The notes below the pieces were generated by a model. It had not been told where the DNA came from. It ran no database searches and was given only the letters and a program-made list of their open reading frames with translations. The translations under genes and the position numbers were made by a program. A stretch of 64,000 bases of DNA, taken from contig NZ_JAJLQY010000009.1 in assembly GCF_020991275.1 (NCBI RefSeq), positions 62,001-126,000 on the forward strand, in the 5' to 3' direction. This DNA is from Actinocorallia sp. API 0066. GTDB taxonomy: Bacteria; Actinomycetota; Actinomycetes; Streptosporangiales; Streptosporangiaceae. Below, piece after piece: positions 18,434 through 30,715 of this stretch (positions are counted from its first letter, which is position 1; every line of letters starts with the position of its first letter).

Positions 18434-20884
18434 GTGACCGATCATCCGTATCCCGATCACTGGGAAGCCGACGTCGTCCTGTCCGACGGCGGGACCGCCC
18501 ACCTGCGCCCGATCCGTGCCGGAGACGCGGAGCTGCTGCGGGCTTTCTACTCGCGGGTCTCTGCGGAGTCGATCTACTACAGGTTCTTCTCGCCGCGGCC
18601 CCACCTGAGCGACAAGGAGATTCGGCATTTCACCACCGTGGACTATTCCGACCGTGTGGCGTTGATCGCCACGATTGGTCAGCAAATGGTGGGTGTGGTG
18701 CGTTATGACCGGACAAAGGATCCCGGACAGGCGGAGGTCGCCTTCCTCGTCGAGGACGCCCATCAGGGCCGCGGCATCGGCTCGGTGCTCCTGGAACACC
18801 TCGCCGCCGCCGCGCGCGAGCGGGGCGTCGCCCGGTTCGAGGCCAACGTGCTCCCCGACAACCGGAAGATGAGCAAGGTCTTCAAGGAGGCCGGGTACGC
18901 CGCCGTCCAGAGGTTCGAGGACGGGATCATCCAGCTCACCCTGGACCTCTCGCCTACGGAGACGTCCCGCGAGGTCATGGCCGCGCGGGAGCACCGCGCC
19001 GAGTCCCGGTCCATCGAACGGCTGCTGCACCCGTCGTCGGTGGCCGTCATCGGCGCCAGCCGGGTTTCCCACAGTGTGGGACAGACGGTCCTGCGCAACC
19101 TCCTCGGGGCCGACTTCACCGGGCCGGTCTATCCGGTGCATCCGGAGGCGCACGCCGTCGCGGGAGTGCGCGCCTACAAGGAGATCGCCGAGATCCCCGA
19201 CAAGGTGGATCTCGCCGTCGTCGCCGTCCCGGCCTCGGCCGTCCAGGACGTGCTCACCCAGTGCGCGGCACAGGGCGTGCACGGCCTCATCGTCGTCTCC
19301 TCCGGCTTCGCCGAGACGGGCCAGGAGGGCCGTGCGGCGCAGCAGGAGCTCGTCAGGGTGGCCCGCGCCAATGGCATGCGTGTCGTCGGCCCCAACTGCC
19401 TCGGGATCTCCAACACCGACCCCTCGGTCCGCCTGAACGCCACGCTCGCGCCCGTCACCCCCGCGCGCGGCCCCGTCGGCTTCTTCTCGCAGTCCGGCGC
19501 GCTCGGCATCGCGATCCTCCAGCGGACGGCGGAGCGCGGCCTCGGCCTGTCCACGTTCGTCTCGGCGGGCAACCGCGCCGACGTCTCCGGCAACGACCTC
19601 CTCCAGTACTGGGAAGCCGACCCCTCGACCAACGCGGTGATGCTCCATCTGGAGTCCATCGGCAACCCGCGCAAGTTCACCCGCCTGGCGCGGCGCGTCT
19701 CCCGTAGCAAGCCCATCGTGGCGGTGAAGACAGGGCGCTCCCTCCAGGGCGTCCCGCTCGGCCACGCGGTGCGCCGCATCGACCTGCCCGACCACGCGGT
19801 GAGCGCGCTGTTCGAGCAGGCGGGCGTGCTGCGGGTGGAGGACCTCGGCGAGATGTTCGACGTGGCCCAGCTGCTCGCCTACCAGCCGCTGCCCGCCGGA
19901 CGCCGGGTCGCGATCATCGACAACGCCGACTCGCTCGGCCTGCTCGCCCGCGACGCCGCGGCCGTGCACGGGCTCGTCGCCGGGCCGCTCGCCTCCCTGG
20001 GGCCGCGCGCGGACGCCGACGACTACGCGCGGGCGCTCACCGCCGCGCTGGAAGACCCGGCCGTCGACGCGGTCGTGGTCCTGTACACGCCGCCCGTCCT
20101 GGGCGGGGCGCAGCTCATGCTGTCGGGACGCCGCAGGGCGGAACCCGTCGCGGAGACCATCGCCCGGCTGGCGCGCGGCTCGGACAAGCCGGTCGTGGCG
20201 ACGTACCTGGGCCAGAAGGGCATGCCGCGCGCCCTGCGGGCGCCCACGCCCGGTGGGGAACCGGGGCCCGGCTCGGTGCCCTCCTACCCGGCCCCGGACG
20301 ACGCCGTCCGGGCGCTCTCCTACGCCTACCGTTACGCGGCTTGGAGGAGACGCCCTCAGGGCCGCATCCCCGACCTTGACGGGATCGACAAGGAGCGGGC
20401 GCGCGGGCTCGTCGAAGGCTGGCTGGCCGAGGGGGAGCGGGGCGACGCCGCAGAGCTGCTGGCCTGCTACGGCGTGCGCGTGGGCGGCGGTCGCGGCGGG
20501 ATCGCCGTGCACATCGCCACCCAGGAGGACGCGTCCTTCGGCGCCGTCGTGTCGTTCCGCCTCGCCGACGTGGCTGCCGCCCTCCTGGACGACCGCGCCT
20601 ACCGGCTCGCGCCTCTGACCGAGTTGGAGGCCGCCGACATGGTCCGCGCCATCCGGATGGCGCCGCTTCTGTTCGGCCACCAGGGCTCGGAGAAGGTCGC
20701 CGTGGAGGCGCTGGAAGAGCTGTTGATCAGGGTCGCGCTGCTCGCCAACGACCTGCCTGAGGTGGCCCGCCTCGAACTGGAGCCCGTCATGGCAGACGCC
20801 GACGGCGTGACCGTCACCGCTGCCCGGATCTCGCTCGCCCCGCCCCCGGGACCCCGCCAGGCCCTGGAGCCCCGCCGGATGTGA
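18434..20884 (+). CDS. GNAT acetyltransferase fused to NDP-forming acyl-CoA synthetase-like domains (PatA type)
   Basis: An 816-residue fusion. Residues about 15-175 are a GNAT acetyltransferase domain (acetyl-CoA loop EDAHQGRGIGSVLLEHL). A CoA-binding domain follows (HPSSVAVIGASRVSHSVG, about 195-320), then succinyl-CoA ligase-like domains with the phospho-His region GPVGFFSQSGALGIAIL. Streptomyces PatA and related proteins acetylate lysines, for example in acyl-CoA synthetases. The C-terminal ATP-grasp domain appears collapsed: LLACYGVRVGGG runs directly into GIAVHIATQED and FGAVVSFRLADV, so the segment normally carrying the ATP-binding Lys (roughly 70-80 residues) is missing in frame. ATP-dependent ligase activity is therefore unlikely. 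GTG 18434 matches a leaderless promoter. Confidence 0.85.
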   Translation: MTDHPYPDHWEADVVLSDGGTAHLRPIRAGDAELLRAFYSRVSAESIYYRFFSPRPHLSDKEIRHFTTVDYSDRVALIATIGQQMVGVVRYDRTKDPGQAEVAFLVEDAHQGRGIGSVLLEHLAAAARERGVARFEANVLPDNRKMSKVFKEAGYAAVQRFEDGIIQLTLDLSPTETSREVMAAREHRAESRSIERLLHPSSVAVIGASRVSHSVGQTVLRNLLGADFTGPVYPVHPEAHAVAGVRAYKEIAEIPDKVDLAVVAVPASAVQDVLTQCAAQGVHGLIVVSSGFAETGQEGRAAQQELVRVARANGMRVVGPNCLGISNTDPSVRLNATLAPVTPARGPVGFFSQSGALGIAILQRTAERGLGLSTFVSAGNRADVSGNDLLQYWEADPSTNAVMLHLESIGNPRKFTRLARRVSRSKPIVAVKTGRSLQGVPLGHAVRRIDLPDHAVSALFEQAGVLRVEDLGEMFDVAQLLAYQPLPAGRRVAIIDNADSLGLLARDAAAVHGLVAGPLASLGPRADADDYARALTAALEDPAVDAVVVLYTPPVLGGAQLMLSGRRRAEPVAETIARLARGSDKPVVATYLGQKGMPRALRAPTPGGEPGPGSVPSYPAPDDAVRALSYAYRYAAWRRRPQGRIPDLDGIDKERARGLVEGWLAEGERGDAAELLACYGVRVGGGRGGIAVHIATQEDASFGAVVSFRLADVAAALLDDRAYRLAPLTELEAADMVRAIRMAPLLFGHQGSEKVAVEALEELLIRVALLANDLPEVARLELEPVMADADGVTVTAARISLAPPPGPRQALEPRRM

Positions 20885-20961
20885 CGGTCTCCGCGCCCCC
20901 CGGCCGGGCTTCCGCGCGGCGCCGGGATGCGCTGAGGGCTCGGTGGGGGCAGGATGGGAGG

Positions 20962-21558
20962 ATGAGGGAAACCCGAGCGAGGGACGACCAGTCGGGGACG
21001 GCGGGGTTGCGCGGCGCCATCGAGCGCAGCGGCTACTATCCGGAGCTCGTCGCCGGCGCGGTGGAGTCCGCACTGGGCAAGGAAGACGTTCTGGCCTATG
21101 TGGTCCACCACGAGGCGGCGTTCGATCCCGGGATGGAAGTCCGCAGGCACGTCACCGTGCTTGTCCTTACCGCCAACCGGCTGCTGTTCTGCCACACCGA
21201 CGAGCACCCGCCGAGCGACCTCGTGCCGCAACCGCACTGCTCGACCACCACCGAGGCCGTCAGGCTCGACCGGATCTCCTCCGTCGCCGTCACCCGCGTG
21301 GTGCCGCGGCCGGAGCGGTACGTGCCGGGCGTCCCGCCGACGGAGGTCGTGCTCACCCTGAACTGGGGCGTGAACTCCCGCATCGACCTGGAGCCCGCGG
21401 GCTGCGGCGACGAGAACTGCGACGCCGACCACGGCTACACCGGCGCCGTCACGTCCGACGACCTGTCCCTGCGGGTGAGCGAGGCGGCCGACGGCGCGGA
21501 GGCCGTCACCCAGGTCCTGGCGTTCGCCGAGGCCCTGACGGCGGTGACGACGGCATGA
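20962..21558 (+). CDS. DUF5998 family protein
   Basis: A 198-residue cytosolic protein of a conserved actinobacterial family without known activity. Recognisable segments are LRGAIERSGYYPELVAGAVE, the VVHHEAAFD motif, RHVTVLVLTANRLLFCHTDE and a late cluster CGDENCDADHGYTG with cysteines, His and acidic residues that could bind metal. ATG 20962 was chosen because the family begins shortly before LRGAIERSGYYP; the open frame extends to 20881 without a plausible start. The stop overlaps the ATG of the phosphodiesterase gene by four bases, and this gene order (DUF5998, phosphodiesterase, sulfurtransferase) is familiar from other actinomycetes. Confidence 0.8.
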   Translation: MRETRARDDQSGTAGLRGAIERSGYYPELVAGAVESALGKEDVLAYVVHHEAAFDPGMEVRRHVTVLVLTANRLLFCHTDEHPPSDLVPQPHCSTTTEAVRLDRISSVAVTRVVPRPERYVPGVPPTEVVLTLNWGVNSRIDLEPAGCGDENCDADHGYTGAVTSDDLSLRVSEAADGAEAVTQVLAFAEALTAVTTA

Positions 21559-22670
21559 CGGGCGGGCCCGAGGCGCCGCCCGTCCCCGGCTACGGCCAGA
21601 CCGCCCTGGCCGACCTGTCCACCTCGGTGCTCGGCGCGCTCGGCGTGCCGGGCGCCGCCAACGTGCTCGACCTGCCAGAGCTGCCGCGCGCCTGCGTGCT
21701 CGTCATCGACGGCATGGGCTGGGAGCTGCTGAAGGCGCATCCGGAGGACGCGCCCTTCCTCAGTTCCCTTCCGGGCCGCCCCCTGACGGCGGGCTTCCCG
21801 GCCACCACGGTGACGAGCCTCAGCTCGCTGGCCACGGGCCTGCCTCCGGGCGAGCACGGCATGGTCGGCCTGCAGGTCGCCGTCCCCGGTGAGGGAAGGC
21901 TCCTCAACTGCCTGCGCTGGGACAACGGCCAGACCGATCCCGAGTCCTTCCAGCCGCGCCGCACCGTCTACGCGCGCGCCGCCGACGCGGGCGTCGCCTC
22001 CAGCTACATCGCGGCGGGCGCCTACAACGGCACCGGGTTCAACAGCGCCATCACCCGTGGCGTGAACTACGTGCCCGCCGACAGCCTGGGCCAGCTCGTC
22101 GCGCGCGCGGAGGAGGCGTTGGAGGGCAAGCGCGCCCACGTCACCGTGTACCACTCCGATCTGGACACCTCCGGCCACATGTACGGCGCGGGCTCCAAGA
22201 CGTGGCGTTACCAGCTCCGGTTCGTCGACCTGCTGGCCGAGCGGATCGCCGAGATCCTGCCCGCGGGCACCGGCCTGTACGTCACGGCCGACCACGGCAT
22301 GACCAACCCGACCGACCGGGTGAACGTCGCCGAGCACCCCTCGCTCGGCCAGGGCGTCGCCCTGCTCGGCGGGGAGGCGCGGGCCCGGCACGTCTACACC
22401 GAGGAGGGCGCCGCCGCCGACGTGCTCGCCGCCTGGACCGAGGTGCTGGGCGACCGCGCCTGGGTGATGTCCCGCGAGCACGCGATCGCGACGGGCTGCT
22501 TCGGGCGCGTCGCTCCGGAGATGCTGCCGCGCATCGGAGACGTCGTCGCCGTCGCGCGCGGCGATCTGGCGATCCTGGGCACCGACCCCTTCGAGGGCCT
22601 CCTCGTCGGCATGCACGGCTCGCTCGTGCCCGAGGAACAGCTGGTGCCGCTGCTGTGGACGACGCGATGA
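21555..22670 (+). CDS. Alkaline phosphatase-superfamily nucleotide pyrophosphatase/phosphodiesterase
   Basis: A 371-residue enzyme of the NPP/AP superfamily. Metal motif 1 is VLVIDGMGWELL (about residues 49-60). The nucleophile Thr lies in AGFPATTVTSLSSLATG, as in nucleotide pyrophosphatases. Later ligands are YHSDLDTSGHMYG, TADHGM and GMHGSLV. No signal peptide is seen, so it probably acts in the cytosol, hydrolysing phosphodiesters of nucleotides or related molecules. It overlaps its neighbours on both sides by four bases (ATGA), indicating a tightly coupled three-gene operon. Confidence 0.87.
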   Translation: MTGGPEAPPVPGYGQTALADLSTSVLGALGVPGAANVLDLPELPRACVLVIDGMGWELLKAHPEDAPFLSSLPGRPLTAGFPATTVTSLSSLATGLPPGEHGMVGLQVAVPGEGRLLNCLRWDNGQTDPESFQPRRTVYARAADAGVASSYIAAGAYNGTGFNSAITRGVNYVPADSLGQLVARAEEALEGKRAHVTVYHSDLDTSGHMYGAGSKTWRYQLRFVDLLAERIAEILPAGTGLYVTADHGMTNPTDRVNVAEHPSLGQGVALLGGEARARHVYTEEGAAADVLAAWTEVLGDRAWVMSREHAIATGCFGRVAPEMLPRIGDVVAVARGDLAILGTDPFEGLLVGMHGSLVPEEQLVPLLWTTR

Positions 22671-23542
22671 GCTCGGGACATACGCCCCTCCCCGAAAGGG
22701 ACGGCAGGGGTCACACTGACGATGTGCGGCCCCTCATCGACGCGCGGAGCCTCGCCCGTGTCCGCGCAGACGCAGTCATCCTCGACGTCCGCTGGCGGCT
22801 GGCCGGGCCGCCGGGCCGGGAGTCCTACCGTGCCGGGCACGTGCCGGGCGCGGTGTTCGTCGACCTGGACACCGAGCTGGCGGGCCCGCCCGGCCGGGGC
22901 GGCAGACACCCGCTGCCCGCGCCCGAGGCGTTCCAGGAGGCGATGCGGCGCGCCGGGGTGTCCCGGGGGTCCCTCGTGGTCGTCTACGACGACGCGGACG
23001 CCACCAGCGCCGCCCGCGCCTGGTGGTGCCTGCGCTACTTCGGGCACGAGCGCGTCCGCGTCCTGGACGGCGGCCTGAACGCCTGGACGCGGGCGGGCCT
23101 GCCGGTCGAGACCGACGAGCGGCACCCGGCGCCCGGCGACTTCACCGCGCGGCCGGGCTGCCTGCCCGTCGTGGACGCGGACGGCGCCGCGGTGCTGGCC
23201 AAGGCCGGGGTGCTGCTGGACGCCAGGGCGGCCGAGCGGTTCCGCGGCGAGGTCGAGCCGGTGGACCCGGTGGCGGGCCACATCCCGGGCGCGGTGAACG
23301 CGCCTACCTGGGCGAACGTGGGCGGCGACGGCAGGTTCCTGGCGCCGGGGGTGCTGCGCGAGCGGTTCGCGGCGCTGGGCGCGACGGACGCCGCCGACAT
23401 CGCCGTCTACTGCGGTTCGGGCGTGACGGCGGCGCACGAGGTCCTCGCGCTGACGCTCGCGGGGGTGCCCGCCGCCCTGTATCCGGGCTCGTGGTCGGAC
23501 TGGGTGCGCGATCCGGCCCACCCCGTGGCCACCGGCGGCTAG
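22667..23542 (+). CDS. Two-domain sulfurtransferase (rhodanese or mercaptopyruvate type)
   Basis: A 291-residue protein with two rhodanese domains. The first, inactive, begins LIDARSLARVRADAVILDVRW. The second carries the catalytic Cys (about residue 249) in VYCGSGVTAAHE. The CGSGVTA loop resembles 3-mercaptopyruvate sulfurtransferases more than classical rhodanese (CRKGVT), but donor preference is not settled by this. ATG 22667 overlaps the preceding stop; GTG 22724 is an alternative, because homologs commonly begin just before the PLID segment. It is convergent with the CHAT gene, 32 bp apart. Confidence 0.85.
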   Translation: MSSGHTPLPERDGRGHTDDVRPLIDARSLARVRADAVILDVRWRLAGPPGRESYRAGHVPGAVFVDLDTELAGPPGRGGRHPLPAPEAFQEAMRRAGVSRGSLVVVYDDADATSAARAWWCLRYFGHERVRVLDGGLNAWTRAGLPVETDERHPAPGDFTARPGCLPVVDADGAAVLAKAGVLLDARAAERFRGEVEPVDPVAGHIPGAVNAPTWANVGGDGRFLAPGVLRERFAALGATDAADIAVYCGSGVTAAHEVLALTLAGVPAALYPGSWSDWVRDPAHPVATGG

Positions 23543-23574: not shown

Positions 23575-25788
23575 TCAGGACCCGGCGCCGAAGGACTGGA
23601 GCCCCGGCCGCCCCGGGCGGTCGGGCAGCGCCGCCAGCGCCGCGGCGGGGGAGGCGCCCGAGGCGAGCCGGGCGTGCAGGTCGCGCATGAGCGGCGGCCC
23701 CGAGGCGTCCGGAAGCGGGGTGACCGAGGCGACGACGGTCCGCACCCCCGCCGACAGCAGGACGCCGGGCAGCCCTAGGACGTCCTCGCCCTGTCCCGCG
23801 TCGCAGGCCGACAGCACGACGAGGTCCGGGGGCGGCGCGAGCGCGTGCAGGTCGTAGCCGGTGAGCGGCCCTCCGGCGACGTCCACATGGGATGCCAGCG
23901 GGTCGTCCGGTTGGTGCGTCCCGTGCGCGCAGAGGTGGGCGATCCGCGCGCCCGCCAGGACGGACGCGTCCGCGCCGGTCCTGACGCCGTCGTGGCAGGC
24001 CGCGACAGCCGCCAGTTCGGTTTCCGCGTGCGTCAGCCCCGGCCCGGACAGCAGCGCGACGTGCCCCGGTGAAGGACGCCGCCGCTGGGCGAGCAGCCAG
24101 GCCGTCGCCGAAGGCACGACGGTGAAGGGCGCGTCGGTGACGACCCGCCAAGGCAGCCCGTAGAGCAGCCCCGTAGGCGCGACGACCAGCTCACAGCCGT
24201 CCAGGAACGCCAGCGCGGGCGCGAACCGCGCGCGCAGGGACGCCACCGCCGCGTCCGGCGAGGAGCCGCCGACCATCGCCCGGGTCAGGGCGAACCGGAT
24301 AAGGCGGGTCTCCCTGACGGCGGCGTCATAGGAGCCGAGGGCGGTACGCCGCACCCGCCCGTCCCGGACGGCCAGCGCGACGAGGTGGTCGCCGCCGCGC
24401 ACGAGTTCCAGCAGCCCCACCCCGTGCAGTCCCGCCAGGAGGTCGGAGGGCGCCACGACCGGGCGCGGCGGAGGCGGGCCCATCGCCCGCGCCCTGTCCC
24501 GCGCGCTGGCGACGTCGGAGGGCGGCCCCTCGGGAAGCGACGGGAACAGGATGCTCCGCCGCAGTTCCTCCAGGGCCAGCAGCTCACGATCGGTCCGGGC
24601 CAGCCGTAGGGCGAGCGGCGACAGGTCCGCGCAGGCGGCGCCGAGATAGGCGCGCAGCTCCACCGAGCCGCCCGCGCCCGCGAGGTCGGCCGCCGTACGA
24701 AGCGCCTCCCTGACGTTCCTGAGCGCCGCCGCCTCCTCGCCGCGCGCGGTGTGCACGTGCGCGGCGTTCTGGTGCGTGCGCAGGCGCAGCGCGGCCGACG
24801 CGGCCGGTGAGGCGCGGCGGGGGAGCAGGTCGCCCGCCTCCGCCGGGAAGGCGCGGGCCGCCTCCACCCGGGCGCGCAGGGCGGGCCCCGCCCAGCCGTA
24901 GGCGTCGAGCCGGGCGGCGGTGCTGCGGACCGAGCACAGCAGCGCGGCCGAGCGCTCGCCGCGCGCCGCGAGCGCGCGCAGCAGCACCCCGTGCGCCTGC
25001 GCCTCCCAGCCCGGCCGCCCCTGCGCGGCGAAGGCGGTCTCGGCCTCCCGCGCCGAGTCGGCGGCCCGTCCCGCGTCGCCGCACGCCAGTTCGGCCTCGG
25101 CGCGCAGGTGGAGGGCGTTGGCGGCGTCGGCGGCGAACCCGGACAGGGCGGCCGTAGAAGCAGCCTCGTCGAGCAGCTCCCGCGCCTCCCCGCACAGCCC
25201 TGCGTCCAGCAGCGCGGCGGCGTGGTCGAGCAGGTGCTGGGCGCGCCGCTCGCCGGTGAACTCCGGCGCCAGCTCGGCGAACAGGCCGAGCGCCCGCGCG
25301 AACCGGCCGCGCAGCGCCGCCAGGTGCGCCTGGTTGTGCCGGACCATCAGCTCCAGCCTGCGCGGCCCGTGCCGGGCGGCGAGCGCCTCGGCGGTCAGCA
25401 GGGCGCTGTCCGCCGCGGTGAACCTGCCCGCCTGGGCCAGCGCGATCCCGTTGGCCATGAGGCGTCCCGCGCGGGCCACCGGGTCGCTGCCGCCGGGCCG
25501 CGCCGGACGGTCGAGCCGGCCCAGGCTGGCCCGCGCGTAGCTGCGGTTGAGGAGCAGCCGCTCCCGGTCGGCGCCCGAAAGGTGCGGCTCGGCGGTGGCG
25601 GCGAGGGCGAGCGCGTCGGCGGTGCGCCCGCCCGCCGTCAGCAGCGCGACCATGACGGCCTGGACACGCGCCACGCCGAGCGGATCCCCGGCCGTCCTGG
25701 CGAGGGCCTCCTGGGACAGCGCCAGGCCCTCCGCAAGCCGTCCGGTCTCCTTGGCCTCCACCGCGCGGGCGAGGAGGCCGTCGATCAC
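23575..25788 (-). CDS. TPR-CHAT caspase-like protease
   Basis: A 737-residue protein. The N-terminal two thirds are Ala/Leu/Arg-rich helical hairpins typical of TPR repeats (for example AEGLALSQEALARTAGDP and RFTAADSALLTAEALAARHG). The C-terminal CHAT domain has the His/Cys dyad of clan CD peptidases: His622 in IAHLCAHGTH and Cys662 in LVVLSACDAGQGED. CHAT is related to separase and caspases; TPR-CHAT proteins include the type III-E CRISPR effector Csx29. GTG 25788 is chosen because it overlaps the preceding stop as GTGA; ATG 25824 is an alternative adding 12 residues. It is the last gene of an operon with a subtilisin, a sigma factor and a small protein, which suggests a proteolytic switch. 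Substrate unknown. Confidence 0.9.
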   Translation of the reverse strand: MIDGLLARAVEAKETGRLAEGLALSQEALARTAGDPLGVARVQAVMVALLTAGGRTADALALAATAEPHLSGADRERLLLNRSYARASLGRLDRPARPGGSDPVARAGRLMANGIALAQAGRFTAADSALLTAEALAARHGPRRLELMVRHNQAHLAALRGRFARALGLFAELAPEFTGERRAQHLLDHAAALLDAGLCGEARELLDEAASTAALSGFAADAANALHLRAEAELACGDAGRAADSAREAETAFAAQGRPGWEAQAHGVLLRALAARGERSAALLCSVRSTAARLDAYGWAGPALRARVEAARAFPAEAGDLLPRRASPAASAALRLRTHQNAAHVHTARGEEAAALRNVREALRTAADLAGAGGSVELRAYLGAACADLSPLALRLARTDRELLALEELRRSILFPSLPEGPPSDVASARDRARAMGPPPPRPVVAPSDLLAGLHGVGLLELVRGGDHLVALAVRDGRVRRTALGSYDAAVRETRLIRFALTRAMVGGSSPDAAVASLRARFAPALAFLDGCELVVAPTGLLYGLPWRVVTDAPFTVVPSATAWLLAQRRRPSPGHVALLSGPGLTHAETELAAVAACHDGVRTGADASVLAGARIAHLCAHGTHQPDDPLASHVDVAGGPLTGYDLHALAPPPDLVVLSACDAGQGEDVLGLPGVLLSAGVRTVVASVTPLPDASGPPLMRDLHARLASGASPAAALAALPDRPGRPGLQSFGAGS

Positions 25789-26213
25789 AGGGTGGTCCAG
25801 CTGGTGACGATCGAGGCGCCGCACGGCAGGGCGAAGTGCAGCATGACGGGCCCGGCCGGGATCCCGTCCACGAGGAAGAAGCCGGAGCCGTCCACGGCGG
25901 CCTCGGTCTCGCCGAGCCGGTGCCGGACGGTCAGCCGCGCCTCGCGCGCGGGCGTGAGCCGTCCGGTGAGGCTCATCCTGCGTGTCCCGGTGACCGCCTC
26001 CAGCTCCACCCGCAGGTCGGGCGCGGCGAACGTGAGGAGCCTGGCGGCCCCGCGCAGCCCGGCCGCCGCAGGCGTCAGCGACGTGACGAGCTCGGCGAGC
26101 GCCGCGTCCGGGTCGCGGAACGCGAAGGCGGCGCGGGCGGCCTCGGCCGACCGCTCCGACGGCGGGTCGAGCAGCGCCAGCGCGCGCTGGATCTCCTGCA
26201 GAAGCTCATGCAT
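25785..26213 (-). CDS. Small linker protein of the CHAT operon
   Basis: A 142-residue protein of unknown function. The first 60 residues are helical (LLQEIQRALALLDP, AAFAFRDPDAALAELVTSL). The remainder alternates short hydrophobic strands (LRVELEAVTGTRRMSLTGRL, ARLTVRHRL, GFFLVDGIPAGPVMLHF), suggesting a beta-sandwich ending in IVTSWTTL. The N-terminal region could contact the sigma factor encoded 15 bp upstream, and the beta part could be the recognition or cleavage target of the CHAT protease; this is inference by analogy with Csx30. The ATG at 26213 has AGAAGGGAG upstream. Its stop overlaps the CHAT GTG. Confidence 0.75.
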   Translation of the reverse strand: MHELLQEIQRALALLDPPSERSAEAARAAFAFRDPDAALAELVTSLTPAAAGLRGAARLLTFAAPDLRVELEAVTGTRRMSLTGRLTPAREARLTVRHRLGETEAAVDGSGFFLVDGIPAGPVMLHFALPCGASIVTSWTTL

Positions 26214-26228
26214 CGGAAGACTCCCTTC

Positions 26229-26750
26229 TCATTCGCCCAGGGCCGCCTTCAGCTTCCCGAGGCAGCGGGCGCGGGCGGGGCCCACGCTCCCGGGCGCAAG
26301 GCCGAGCGCGGCAGCGACCTCCGCGTAGGAGGCGGTCGCCGCGAGCAGCCGCAGGATGCGCCCGCAGGGTTCGGGCAGAGACTCCAGCGCCGCCGCCACC
26401 CTTGACAGCCGGTCGCGCTCCACGCACAGCGCCTCGGGTCCCGGCCCCGGGTCGGCGTCGTCGGCCGGGTCGCGCGGCGCGGGGACACGGGCGAGCGGCG
26501 CGCACTCGCGGCGGCAGGTCGTGGCCAGCCACGCGCCCACCGCGTCGGGCGAGCGCAGGTCCCCGAGGTGCTGGACGAGCCGCAGCCACGTCGTCTGGAC
26601 GGCGTCCTCGGCCGCCGCCTTCGGCAGCCCGTACGCCCTGGCGATCGACCACAGCATCGGGTGGTAGCGGGCCACGAGGGCCTCCCAGGCGCGCGCGTCG
26701 CCGTCCCTGGCCCGCGCCACCAGGGCCCCCGGCGCGACGAGATCGCTCAC
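26229..26750 (-). CDS. ECF-like sigma-70 family RNA polymerase sigma factor
   Basis: A 173-residue sigma factor. Region 2 is residues about 14-80 (ARAWEALVARYHPMLWSIAR, then AEDAVQTTWLRLVQHLGDL). Region 4 is about 118-170 (ALESLPEPCGRILRLLAAT, then YAEVAAALGLAPGSVGPARARCLGKL). There is no region 3, as in ECF sigmas, and no transmembrane anti-sigma gene is adjacent. GTG 26750 overlaps the subtilisin stop by four bases, so the two are translated together. It presumably redirects RNA polymerase to a stress or defence regulon, perhaps released by proteolysis; the promoter it recognises is unknown. Confidence 0.88.
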   Translation of the reverse strand: MSDLVAPGALVARARDGDARAWEALVARYHPMLWSIARAYGLPKAAAEDAVQTTWLRLVQHLGDLRSPDAVGAWLATTCRRECAPLARVPAPRDPADDADPGPGPEALCVERDRLSRVAAALESLPEPCGRILRLLAATASYAEVAAALGLAPGSVGPARARCLGKLKAALGE

Positions 26751-27832
26751 CCGGCCTCGACGAGCGTCCCGAGCCCCGGCCTGACCGGACCGGAGGCGAG
26801 CACCGCGTCGGCCGCCTCAGCGGGCGCCAGACCCTCCGCGACGCGCGCCGCGACCATCCCCGCGACGACCGGCGCCGCGAACGAGGTGCCCGACCACGTC
26901 GCGTACCCGGCGAACTCGCCGAACCGGACAAAACTGCTGCGCACCGCGGTGCCCTGCGCCGCCGCGTCCACCCACCAGCCGTGATTGGAGAACCAGGCGC
27001 GGTCGGCGCCGTCCAGCGCGGCGACGGCGACGACCTGCTTGAGCGCGGCGGGCCAGAACGGCCGGTCGCACGCGGTGTTGCCCGCGCAGGCCACCACGAC
27101 GGTGGCCCGGCCGAGCGCGGCGATCGCCTGCTGGAGCAGCGGCGAGGGCCGGTCGTCGAAGGTGTGGCAGCCGAGCGACAGATTGACCACGTCGGCCTTC
27201 AGCCCGTGCAGCGCGTTGATCACCTGGAGTTCGTCGCCCACGCCGTCGCCGCCGATGACGCGCCGCGCGACGATCCGCGCCGTGGGCGCCCGCTGCAGCA
27301 CCACGCCCGCGACGAACGTGCCGTGCCCGGCCTGGGCGTCGAGCTCGTAGTCGAGGTCGGCGTCGGGCACCTCGCGGTGCTCCTCCTCGTGCTCGGCGAA
27401 CCAGTCGGCGCCCGAGTACCACGGGTGCGGGTCGAGGCCGGTGTCCAGCACGGCGACGGTCACGTCGCGGCGGGACGGCCCCGGCTCGGGCACCGGGAAC
27501 GGGTCGGCGGGTCTGGGCCGGTCGGCGGGGCCGGTCCACCACATGGGCTGGCCGTAGACCAGATGGTTGGGCGAGACGTTGATGCCGCGCTCGCGGGCGA
27601 GGAGGCTGAGCTCGCAGACATCGACGCGGGCCGTGCGGTTGAGCCGGAGCCTGGTGAGGCCGGGGCCGCGCTCGCGGCCCGCGGTCCAGCGTCGCAGGAG
27701 GTCCTCGGCGCGGGCCAGGTCCGGTTCCGCGACGAGCACCTCGTCCCTGCGCAGGAGCGCGCCGGTCTGCACGACCTGCACGTCCCGATGGCGGGCGAGC
27801 AGTCGCTCCACCCGTGCACCCTGATCGAACAT
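26747..27832 (-). CDS. Cytoplasmic S8 subtilisin-like protease
   Basis: A 361-residue serine protease, first gene of the operon. The catalytic triad is Asp130 (VAVLDTGLDP), His170 (AQAGHGTFVAG) and Ser317 (TWSGTSFAAPVVAGM), with the oxyanion Asn252 in CAGNTACD. No signal peptide, propeptide or transmembrane anchor is apparent, so it should act in the cytosol, unlike mycosins. The first 120 residues form an additional domain ending in a Pro-rich linker (PADPFPVPEPGP) before the protease. ATG 27832 follows a 13-bp palindrome. It overlaps the sigma gene. Its obvious candidate substrates are the operon partners. Confidence 0.9.
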   Translation of the reverse strand: MFDQGARVERLLARHRDVQVVQTGALLRRDEVLVAEPDLARAEDLLRRWTAGRERGPGLTRLRLNRTARVDVCELSLLARERGINVSPNHLVYGQPMWWTGPADRPRPADPFPVPEPGPSRRDVTVAVLDTGLDPHPWYSGADWFAEHEEEHREVPDADLDYELDAQAGHGTFVAGVVLQRAPTARIVARRVIGGDGVGDELQVINALHGLKADVVNLSLGCHTFDDRPSPLLQQAIAALGRATVVVACAGNTACDRPFWPAALKQVVAVAALDGADRAWFSNHGWWVDAAAQGTAVRSSFVRFGEFAGYATWSGTSFAAPVVAGMVAARVAEGLAPAEAADAVLASGPVRPGLGTLVEAG

Positions 27833-27834
27833 GC

Positions 27835-27847
27835 GGCACAGTGTGCC
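27835..27847 (-). repeat. Palindrome at the start of the protease-sigma-CHAT operon
   Basis: Perfect 6-bp inverted arms GGCACA and TGTGCC around one central base, ending three bases upstream of the ATG of the subtilisin gene. It could be an operator or a small hairpin in the 5' end of the mRNA. No clear -10 or -35 pair was found in the 89-bp gap to ohr. Confidence 0.35.
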
Positions 27848-30220: not shown

Positions 30221-30715
30221 GTGACCGTACGCGGTGTGTTTCACGTCCACTCCGCGCCACCTGCGCTGTGCCCGCACATCGAGTGGGCGACCGCGGGTGT
30301 GCTTGGCGTTCCCGTCAAGCTGCTGTGGACCGACCAGCCCGCTGCCCCCGGCAGCCAGCGGGCCGAGCTGTGCTGGGAGGGCAAGCCCGGTATCGCCGCC
30401 GCCATCACCTCCTCGTTGCGCGCCTGGAAGCTCGCGCGGTTCGAGGTGACCGAGGAGGCGTCCCCGGGCGCCGACGGCATGCGGTACTGCTTCACGCCCA
30501 CCCTCGGCGTCTTCTCCGCGACGATCGGCGCCAACGGCGACATCATGGTCCCCGAGGACCGGCTCCGCCGGGTGATGGCCGACGCCGCGAGCAACCGGAC
30601 CACCCTGGAGTACGAGCTCGACAGGCTGCTCGGCACCCCGTGGGACCACGAGCTGGAACCGTTCCGCCGCGCCGGCGACGGCGCCCCCGTGCGCTGGCTG
30701 CACGCCGCGGGCTGA
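30221..30715 (+). CDS. DUF3145 family protein
   Basis: A 164-residue cytosolic protein conserved in actinobacteria and often found near fatty acid synthase and aceE genes, as it is here. Characteristic segments are VFHVHSAPPALCPHIEWA, a WKLARFEVTEEA strand and MRYCFTPTLGVFSA, ending with NRTTLEYELDRLLGTPWDHE. Biochemical function is not known. The start is GTG 30221 with AGGAGGA upstream. Its stop codon lies inside a bidirectional terminator. Confidence 0.88.
   Translation: MTVRGVFHVHSAPPALCPHIEWATAGVLGVPVKLLWTDQPAAPGSQRAELCWEGKPGIAAAITSSLRAWKLARFEVTEEASPGADGMRYCFTPTLGVFSATIGANGDIMVPEDRLRRVMADAASNRTTLEYELDRLLGTPWDHELEPFRRAGDGAPVRWLHAAG

Follow-up and report, generated by a model that had tools for sequence, protein, structure and literature searches.

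A subtilase, an ECF sigma factor, a small protein and a TPR-CHAT protein encoded together in Actinomycetota: a candidate proteolysis-gated sigma switch

Four genes on the minus strand

We analysed a stretch of 64,000 nucleotides from Actinocorallia sp. API 0066 (contig NZ_JAJLQY010000009.1, positions 62,001 to 126,000; here called the window), in which positions 23,575 to 27,832 are occupied by four minus-strand genes. In order of transcription these encode an S8 subtilase (S8), an extracytoplasmic function (ECF) sigma factor, a small protein (SM) that we propose to be an anti-sigma factor, and a TPR-CHAT protein. An earlier note, made from the window alone, had described this gene set and proposed a proteolysis-gated transcriptional switch. 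The arrangement it gave agrees with the open reading frames (ORFs) and the sequence: GTGA overlaps join S8 to sigma (26747..26750) and SM to CHAT (25785..25788), and 15 bp separate the sigma stop from the SM start. The source genome (7.0 Mb) holds a single SM and a single full CHAT of the operon kind.

The S8 gene (26747..27832) encodes 361 aa with a Pfam Peptidase_S8 match at residues 122-329 (8.8e-28) and an N-terminal extension of ~120 aa with neither a hydrophobic stretch nor a signal peptide. Its triad is intact, as claimed—Asp130 (27443..27445), His170 (27323..27325) and Ser317 (26882..26884), each found in 132/132 aligned S8 proteins—and the oxyanion Asn252 is present, with Asn kept in the same 132/132. 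The sigma gene (26229..26750; 173 aa) encodes region 2 and region 4, again as claimed (sigma70-ECF 6.5e-16, Sigma70_r2 1.2e-12), region 4 being weak in Pfam (0.0039). SM (25785..26213) is an ORF of 142 aa without a Pfam family.

The TPR-CHAT gene (23575..25788) encodes 737 aa counted from the overlap GTG, with a Pfam CHAT match of 1.7e-20. Residues 1-415 (24544..25788) form a TPR-like alpha-solenoid according to TPR matches and AlphaFold2, and residues 457-737 (23578..24420) a caspase-like CHAT domain according to Pfam, AlphaFold2, and structure and sequence matches. The protein is recognisable as a TPR-CHAT protease with a His/Cys dyad: His622 (23923..23925) and Cys662 (23803..23805) lie at the positions claimed and are present in 148/153 and 147/153 alignment rows, the remaining 5 and 6 being gaps. 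The catalytic residues of both S8 and CHAT are thus invariant across homologues wherever aligned, a check on which the earlier proposal depended. The AlphaFold2 model of the window protein has a predicted local distance difference test (pLDDT) of 89.5 and a predicted template modelling score (pTM) of 0.87. Foldseek places the TPR-CHAT proteins of Craspase and Csx29 first (~1e-12), then DdvA and separases, with ~12% identity in the alignments; by sequence, the best solved chain for the CHAT domain is 8rot (DdvA; 2.5e-12) and Craspase is next (~1e-5).

Conservation and genomic setting

SM was found in 39/60 relatives, in 42/396 genomes of the phylum and in 117/394 genomes of the class. With cut-offs of 1e-10 for SM, 1e-60 for CHAT and 1e-40 for S8, the 394 class genomes include 117 with SM, 120 with CHAT and 107 with S8; all three occur in 92, SM and CHAT in 17, CHAT and S8 in 11, SM and S8 in 1, SM alone in 7, S8 alone in 3, and none of them in 263. 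Taken pairwise, SM and CHAT are both present in 109 genomes, SM without CHAT in 8, CHAT without SM in 11 and neither in 266 (Fisher 1.6e-73, kinship uncorrected). CHAT and S8 are both present in 103; S8 without CHAT is rare (4/107) and CHAT without S8 commoner (17/120).

Three sets of loci, which overlap in part and whose counts are kept per set and are not additive, were examined for gene content. The first SM-seeded set (46 loci, L037-L082) has all four genes in 27, CHAT, sigma and SM in 10, sigma and SM in 4, and other combinations in 5. The CHAT-seeded set (L083-L162, the 80 best loci among at least 479) has all four in 65, and its 15 others comprise 11 loci cut at a contig end and 4 without S8 (L107, L109, L127 and L134). 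The second SM-seeded set (60 loci, L252-L311, at least five of them also in the CHAT-seeded set) has all four in 37, sigma and SM in 15, CHAT, sigma and SM in 6, and others in 2. Sigma accompanies SM in 42/46 and 58/60 loci of the two SM-seeded sets, and a -4 overlap start is possible in 55/115 pairs; the synteny expected under the earlier proposal is found. Two layouts dominate, S8>sigma>SM>CHAT (that of the window) and CHAT< S8>sigma>SM.

The association persists where the genes are apart. For 14 of the 15 loci with sigma and SM only, CHAT is present elsewhere in the genome, either at a distance or on a different contig, the sole exception being a genome that is 75% complete (G651), without CHAT. 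Ten split genomes were inspected (seven from these 15, G058 from the first set, and G559 and G577 picked by position). A full CHAT is present in every one and in 10/10 S8 adjoins it, so the parts are retained even if unlinked. These split systems, in which sigma-SM lies apart from CHAT/S8 (L312-L321), fall in families f21 and f101. The four-gene association exceeds chance, and the four genes are one co-inherited module kept far beyond the window.

Flanking the operon in the window are genes for DUF5998 (20881-21558), Phosphodiest (21555-22670), rhodanese (22724-23542) and DUF3145 (30221-30715) proteins. Similar genes adjoin the system in many relatives, which points to an old chromosomal site; a Phosphodiest-family neighbour lies within 3.5 kb in 61/127 loci (sets overlapping in part). 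No constant partner gene beyond the four and the housekeeping neighbours was seen in the neighbourhoods of the relatives' loci.

As the earlier note had stated, no clustered regularly interspaced short palindromic repeats (CRISPR) system lies nearby: window positions 18-36 kb contain no array, with nothing but two-copy repeats at 72-81% identity, and all six matches to the RAMP family (PF03787) in the source genome lie elsewhere, on C12 and C23, while the contig of the window (C44) has none. The RAMP-family genes, at C12:94-99 kb and C23:351-355 kb (L365-L367), probably belong to a type III CRISPR system; the CHAT profile matched nothing on C12 or C23 at 1e-5.

A phage signal had also been entertained as the trigger, and this part of the proposal is unsupported. 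A tblastn search of 50,697 phage records with the window SM as the only query found nothing at E 0.01, and CHAT, at an E limit of 1e-20, hit a single record labelled 'plasmid', with a length of 11.85 Mb. PADLOC returned generic models only—S8 to 'subtilase' at 8e-12 (catalytic domain) and IetS at 2.3e-5, CHAT to BovA at 0.022—and no match for sigma or SM. We do not favour a phage-defence reading, given that the window SM finds no match in these phage records, the PADLOC matches are generic and many loci share a chromosomal neighbourhood.

The small protein, a promoter-like element and the proposed switch

CarboxypepD_reg is matched weakly by 14/33 SM members (best 4.3e-5). In the AlphaFold2 model of a homologous sigma-SM chain, that of locus L124, the SM part has two helices and nine strands; Foldseek of this model returns ECF sigma chains and, more weakly, a bacterial adhesin and other beta-sandwich chains, the latter taken to correspond to the SM part. 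With its fold taken from this homologue, SM is predicted to consist of N-terminal helices followed by an immunoglobulin-like (Ig-like), CarboxypepD_reg-like beta domain. A variable loop, placed from the same model, spans residues 46-57 (26043..26078) and includes Arg54 (26052..26054), which is invariant in 173/173 SM sequences; in the L124 model the invariant Arg falls in the loop joining the first two strands, and it is our candidate for a CHAT cut site.

SM is encoded beside sigma, as would be expected of an anti-sigma factor, and we infer that it binds and inhibits that sigma and that CHAT cuts it. Across 105 non-redundant systems the partial distance correlation is highest for sigma-SM (0.49), followed by S8-CHAT (0.43), sigma-CHAT (0.38), SM-CHAT (0.32), SM-S8 (0.20) and sigma-S8 (-0.02). 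Residue coupling gives a pair, sigma E23-SM R27, with a z of 7.7, above the maxima of 25/25 shuffles; the sigma-SM coupling is suggestive at most.

A promoter-like element accompanies the system. TGTATCAG is enriched 5' of the operons, in 10/62 non-redundant regions against 0.0 expected, and the element, TGTATCA-N16/17-CTC, has the form of an ECF promoter; a first dyad screen for it was discarded, being swamped by related sequences. The spacing is N16 in 27 cases and N17 in 18, with 0-6 for other spacings, and in the second SM-seeded set (mostly new loci) N16 in 32 and N17 in 6, with 0-3 for others. Exact sites, counted up to 700 bp upstream of each gene, precede S8 in 20/39, sigma in 5/60, SM in 0/60 and CHAT in 0/45 cases in the second SM-seeded set, and S8 in 22/100, sigma in 4/118, SM in 3/118 and CHAT in 0/117 in L037-L162; a weight matrix gives 27/101, 7/118, 5/119 and 1/124, respectively. 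The CTC is commonly 35-43 bp ahead of the called S8 start. The element tracks S8 even where S8 is unlinked from sigma (L059, and as CGTATCA in L053 and L151), and it is found in trans in a split system (L321). It lies upstream of S8 in 7/56 and 5/12 loci of the window's layout in two sets, and in 16/38 and 17/26 loci of other layouts. From its form and position, the operon's sigma would be the factor that reads it.

Further sites were recorded elsewhere. In genus g54 (perhaps Streptomyces) a second site precedes a regulator gene in 8/12 loci (L277, L278, L280, L288, L289, L294, L295 and L297), 8 bp ahead of the called start in six of them; L055 and L078 also have the element at the start of such a gene, and LuxR and AAA domains are present in all four regulators scanned (L277, L295, L055 and L078). 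In Actinomadura rubrisoli a patatin-like phospholipase gene (L140:15672-16658, minus strand; 1.2e-30) begins 46 bp past an element and adjoins two tail-to-tail copies of the system. Six of the 121 CHAT genes with 300 bp downstream have an element 129-190 bp past the 3' end, aimed back into CHAT (L059:6658, L065:15999, L140:10402, L142:10579, L157:10558 and L162:10558, three of them in Salinispora), possibly for antisense control of CHAT. In two loci, from L112:4573 and from L143:4846 onwards, the element is separated from S8 by a short basic ORF.

Because the element precedes S8 and not CHAT, S8 would be the output and CHAT the input, and S8 is more likely an output than a gate on or of CHAT. 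The idea of a protease-based switch stands in that the genes form one co-inherited module, SM is tied to sigma, and the logic resembles that of Csx29, Csx30 and CASP-sigma without CRISPR; the gating of one protease by the other that the earlier note had added fits the promoter placement less well. A twin-arginine translocation (Tat)-like N-terminus, which the window S8 does not share, was flagged on 9/140 S8 proteins, all from Micromonospora-type loci (L116, L130, L133, L136, L150, L152, L153, L158 and L159). In that lineage S8 probably acts outside the cell.

We suggest, at roughly even odds, a stand-alone cytoplasmic switch in which CHAT cuts the anti-sigma SM and the freed sigma induces S8. 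The TPR solenoid of the CHAT protein would sense a signal and unleash the Cys/His protease; the N-terminal helices of SM would hold the sigma factor until CHAT cleaved the SM loop at Arg54. Free sigma would then, in many relatives, transcribe S8 from TGTATCA-N16/17-CTC, together with sigma and SM if these are in the same operon, and in genus g54 the LuxR/AAA regulator as well. S8 would be the induced executor protease, and newly made SM would reset the switch. A fuller version is more tentative: an old, CRISPR-independent, caspase/separase-like switch of Actinomycetota in which CHAT cuts SM after Arg54, the targets of the freed sigma lie mainly at its own locus (S8, with LuxR/AAA in g54), and some lineages dampen the input through a sigma-driven promoter that runs antisense into CHAT from its 3' end.

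Several observations weigh against this model. S8 is missing from 17 genomes that have SM and CHAT. The S8 genes of most window-layout loci, and of many loci with other layouts (the Micromonospora-type ones among them), are without the element, and no TGTATCA-type site was scored upstream of the genes in the window or in its close relatives L037 and L038. Genome-wide, exact totals are not above those of a reversed-pattern control (31 vs 26 in 10 genomes, 37 vs 36 in 12). Among solved chains the SM profile has no match at E values up to 10, and the invariant Arg may be structural instead. Modelling of the sigma-SM complex, which the earlier note had proposed, gave good domains for the L124 read-through chain (pLDDT 88) but no confident complex (pTM 0.49). 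All five protein pairs tested for coupling surpass the top-20 mean of their own shuffles, which makes the null leaky, and pairs between sigma region 2 and the SM N-terminus number 9 in the top 25, against 2-10 in shuffles.

The genome-wide counts also led us to reject a broad regulon: exact sites are few, their totals are near the control, and only their placement is special, with 20 of the 37 exact sites in the 12 genomes at the system locus. The source genome has one exact match, off the locus, and its control also one. Upstream of S8 in the window, 7 bp before the ATG, is a -10-like hexamer, CACACT (27840..27845, minus strand; weak, noted by eye), a possible leaderless housekeeping promoter.

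Among the alternatives, an unlikely one that fares best is that CHAT, without cutting SM, joins it in a complex that sequesters sigma in the manner of the CHAT-containing anti-sigma DdvA, and that a signal to the TPR domain opens this complex. The rank of 8rot, titled transmembrane anti-sigma factor DdvA, as the CHAT domain's best solved-chain sequence match favours it, as does the occurrence of SM and CHAT together in 109 genomes. A pure scaffold, however, would not need His622 and Cys662, which never vary where aligned, and neither SM nor CHAT of the window has a clear membrane segment (hydropathy over 19 residues peaks at 1.47 and 1.59, respectively). Less probable still is that S8 destroys SM under the control of CHAT. 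The presence of CHAT in 103/107 S8 genomes, its adjacency to S8 in 10/10 split genomes and the S8-CHAT correlation of 0.43 would suit such an arrangement, but the 17 genomes that have SM and CHAT without S8, the placement of the element at S8 and not at CHAT, and the correlations of S8 with SM (0.20) and with sigma (-0.02) argue against it; moreover, with its Tat-like export signal, the Micromonospora-type S8 could hardly cleave a cytoplasmic inhibitor. That SM serves sigma as an adaptor or co-activator, which the indirect case for inhibition and the lack of a known family above cut-off would allow, seems equally improbable by analogy, the pairing of SM with a protease mirroring that of the protease-cut anti-sigmas Csx30 and CalpT.

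Comparison with known systems

No description of the four-gene system was found among the literature matches listed, an earlier account being possible, and this control system is apparently uncharacterised so far. Its outline is that of Craspase or of CalpL-CalpT-CalpS. In type III-E Craspase (Csx29, Csx30, CASP-sigma), according to PMC10028731, Csx30 blocks CASP-sigma and is cleaved within its C-terminal domain, at a small flexible loop. Both systems combine a TPR-CHAT protease and an ECF sigma with a multi-domain protein, which binds sigma in Craspase and would do so here. In contrast to Craspase, the window's contig has no RAMP gene, no array is nearby and S8 is added; SM has 142 aa and an Ig-like domain, vs 565 aa for Csx30, and its profile shows no homology to Csx30 by sequence, although 8eey among the solved chains holds Csx30. 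With no RAMP gene on the contig, no Csx30 by sequence and an extra S8, the operon is not a Craspase member.

In CalpL-CalpT-CalpS, according to passages of PMC11417357, an ECF sigma is held by an anti-sigma, which a protease cleaves once a signal has activated it. That system belongs to type III CRISPR and differs in its protease, a Lon-SAVED protein fired by cyclic tetra-adenylate (cA4). The CRISPR-activated SAVED-CHAT type III-B cascade of Steens et al. 2024 reportedly combines CHAT with a second, caspase-like protease and a sigma partner.

DdvS of Myxococcus xanthus is active once DdvA is inactivated, as passages of PMC4374960 have it. There too a CHAT domain is linked to an ECF sigma, 8rot and 8rw5 being titled anti-sigma factor DdvA; unlike in the window system, DdvA itself is the membrane anti-sigma, and the SM profile finds no DdvA chain. 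EACC2-caspase neighbourhoods with an ECF sigma and a TPR protein likewise set a caspase-like protease beside an ECF sigma, but with other partners, no SM or S8 being mentioned in the passages concerned (PMC8195603).

In the passages of the literature cited here, CHAT-linked switches with a protease-cut anti-sigma are described from CRISPR loci. The same outline occurs here in ~30% of the 394 sampled class genomes, at conserved sites on the chromosome; it includes two proteases and a testable promoter element, and the system opens a route to a CHAT protease role outside CRISPR and to an unstudied actinobacterial regulatory pathway. If the old, CRISPR-independent switch outlined above is real, Craspase would be one RNA-guided version of a far more widespread kind of switch.

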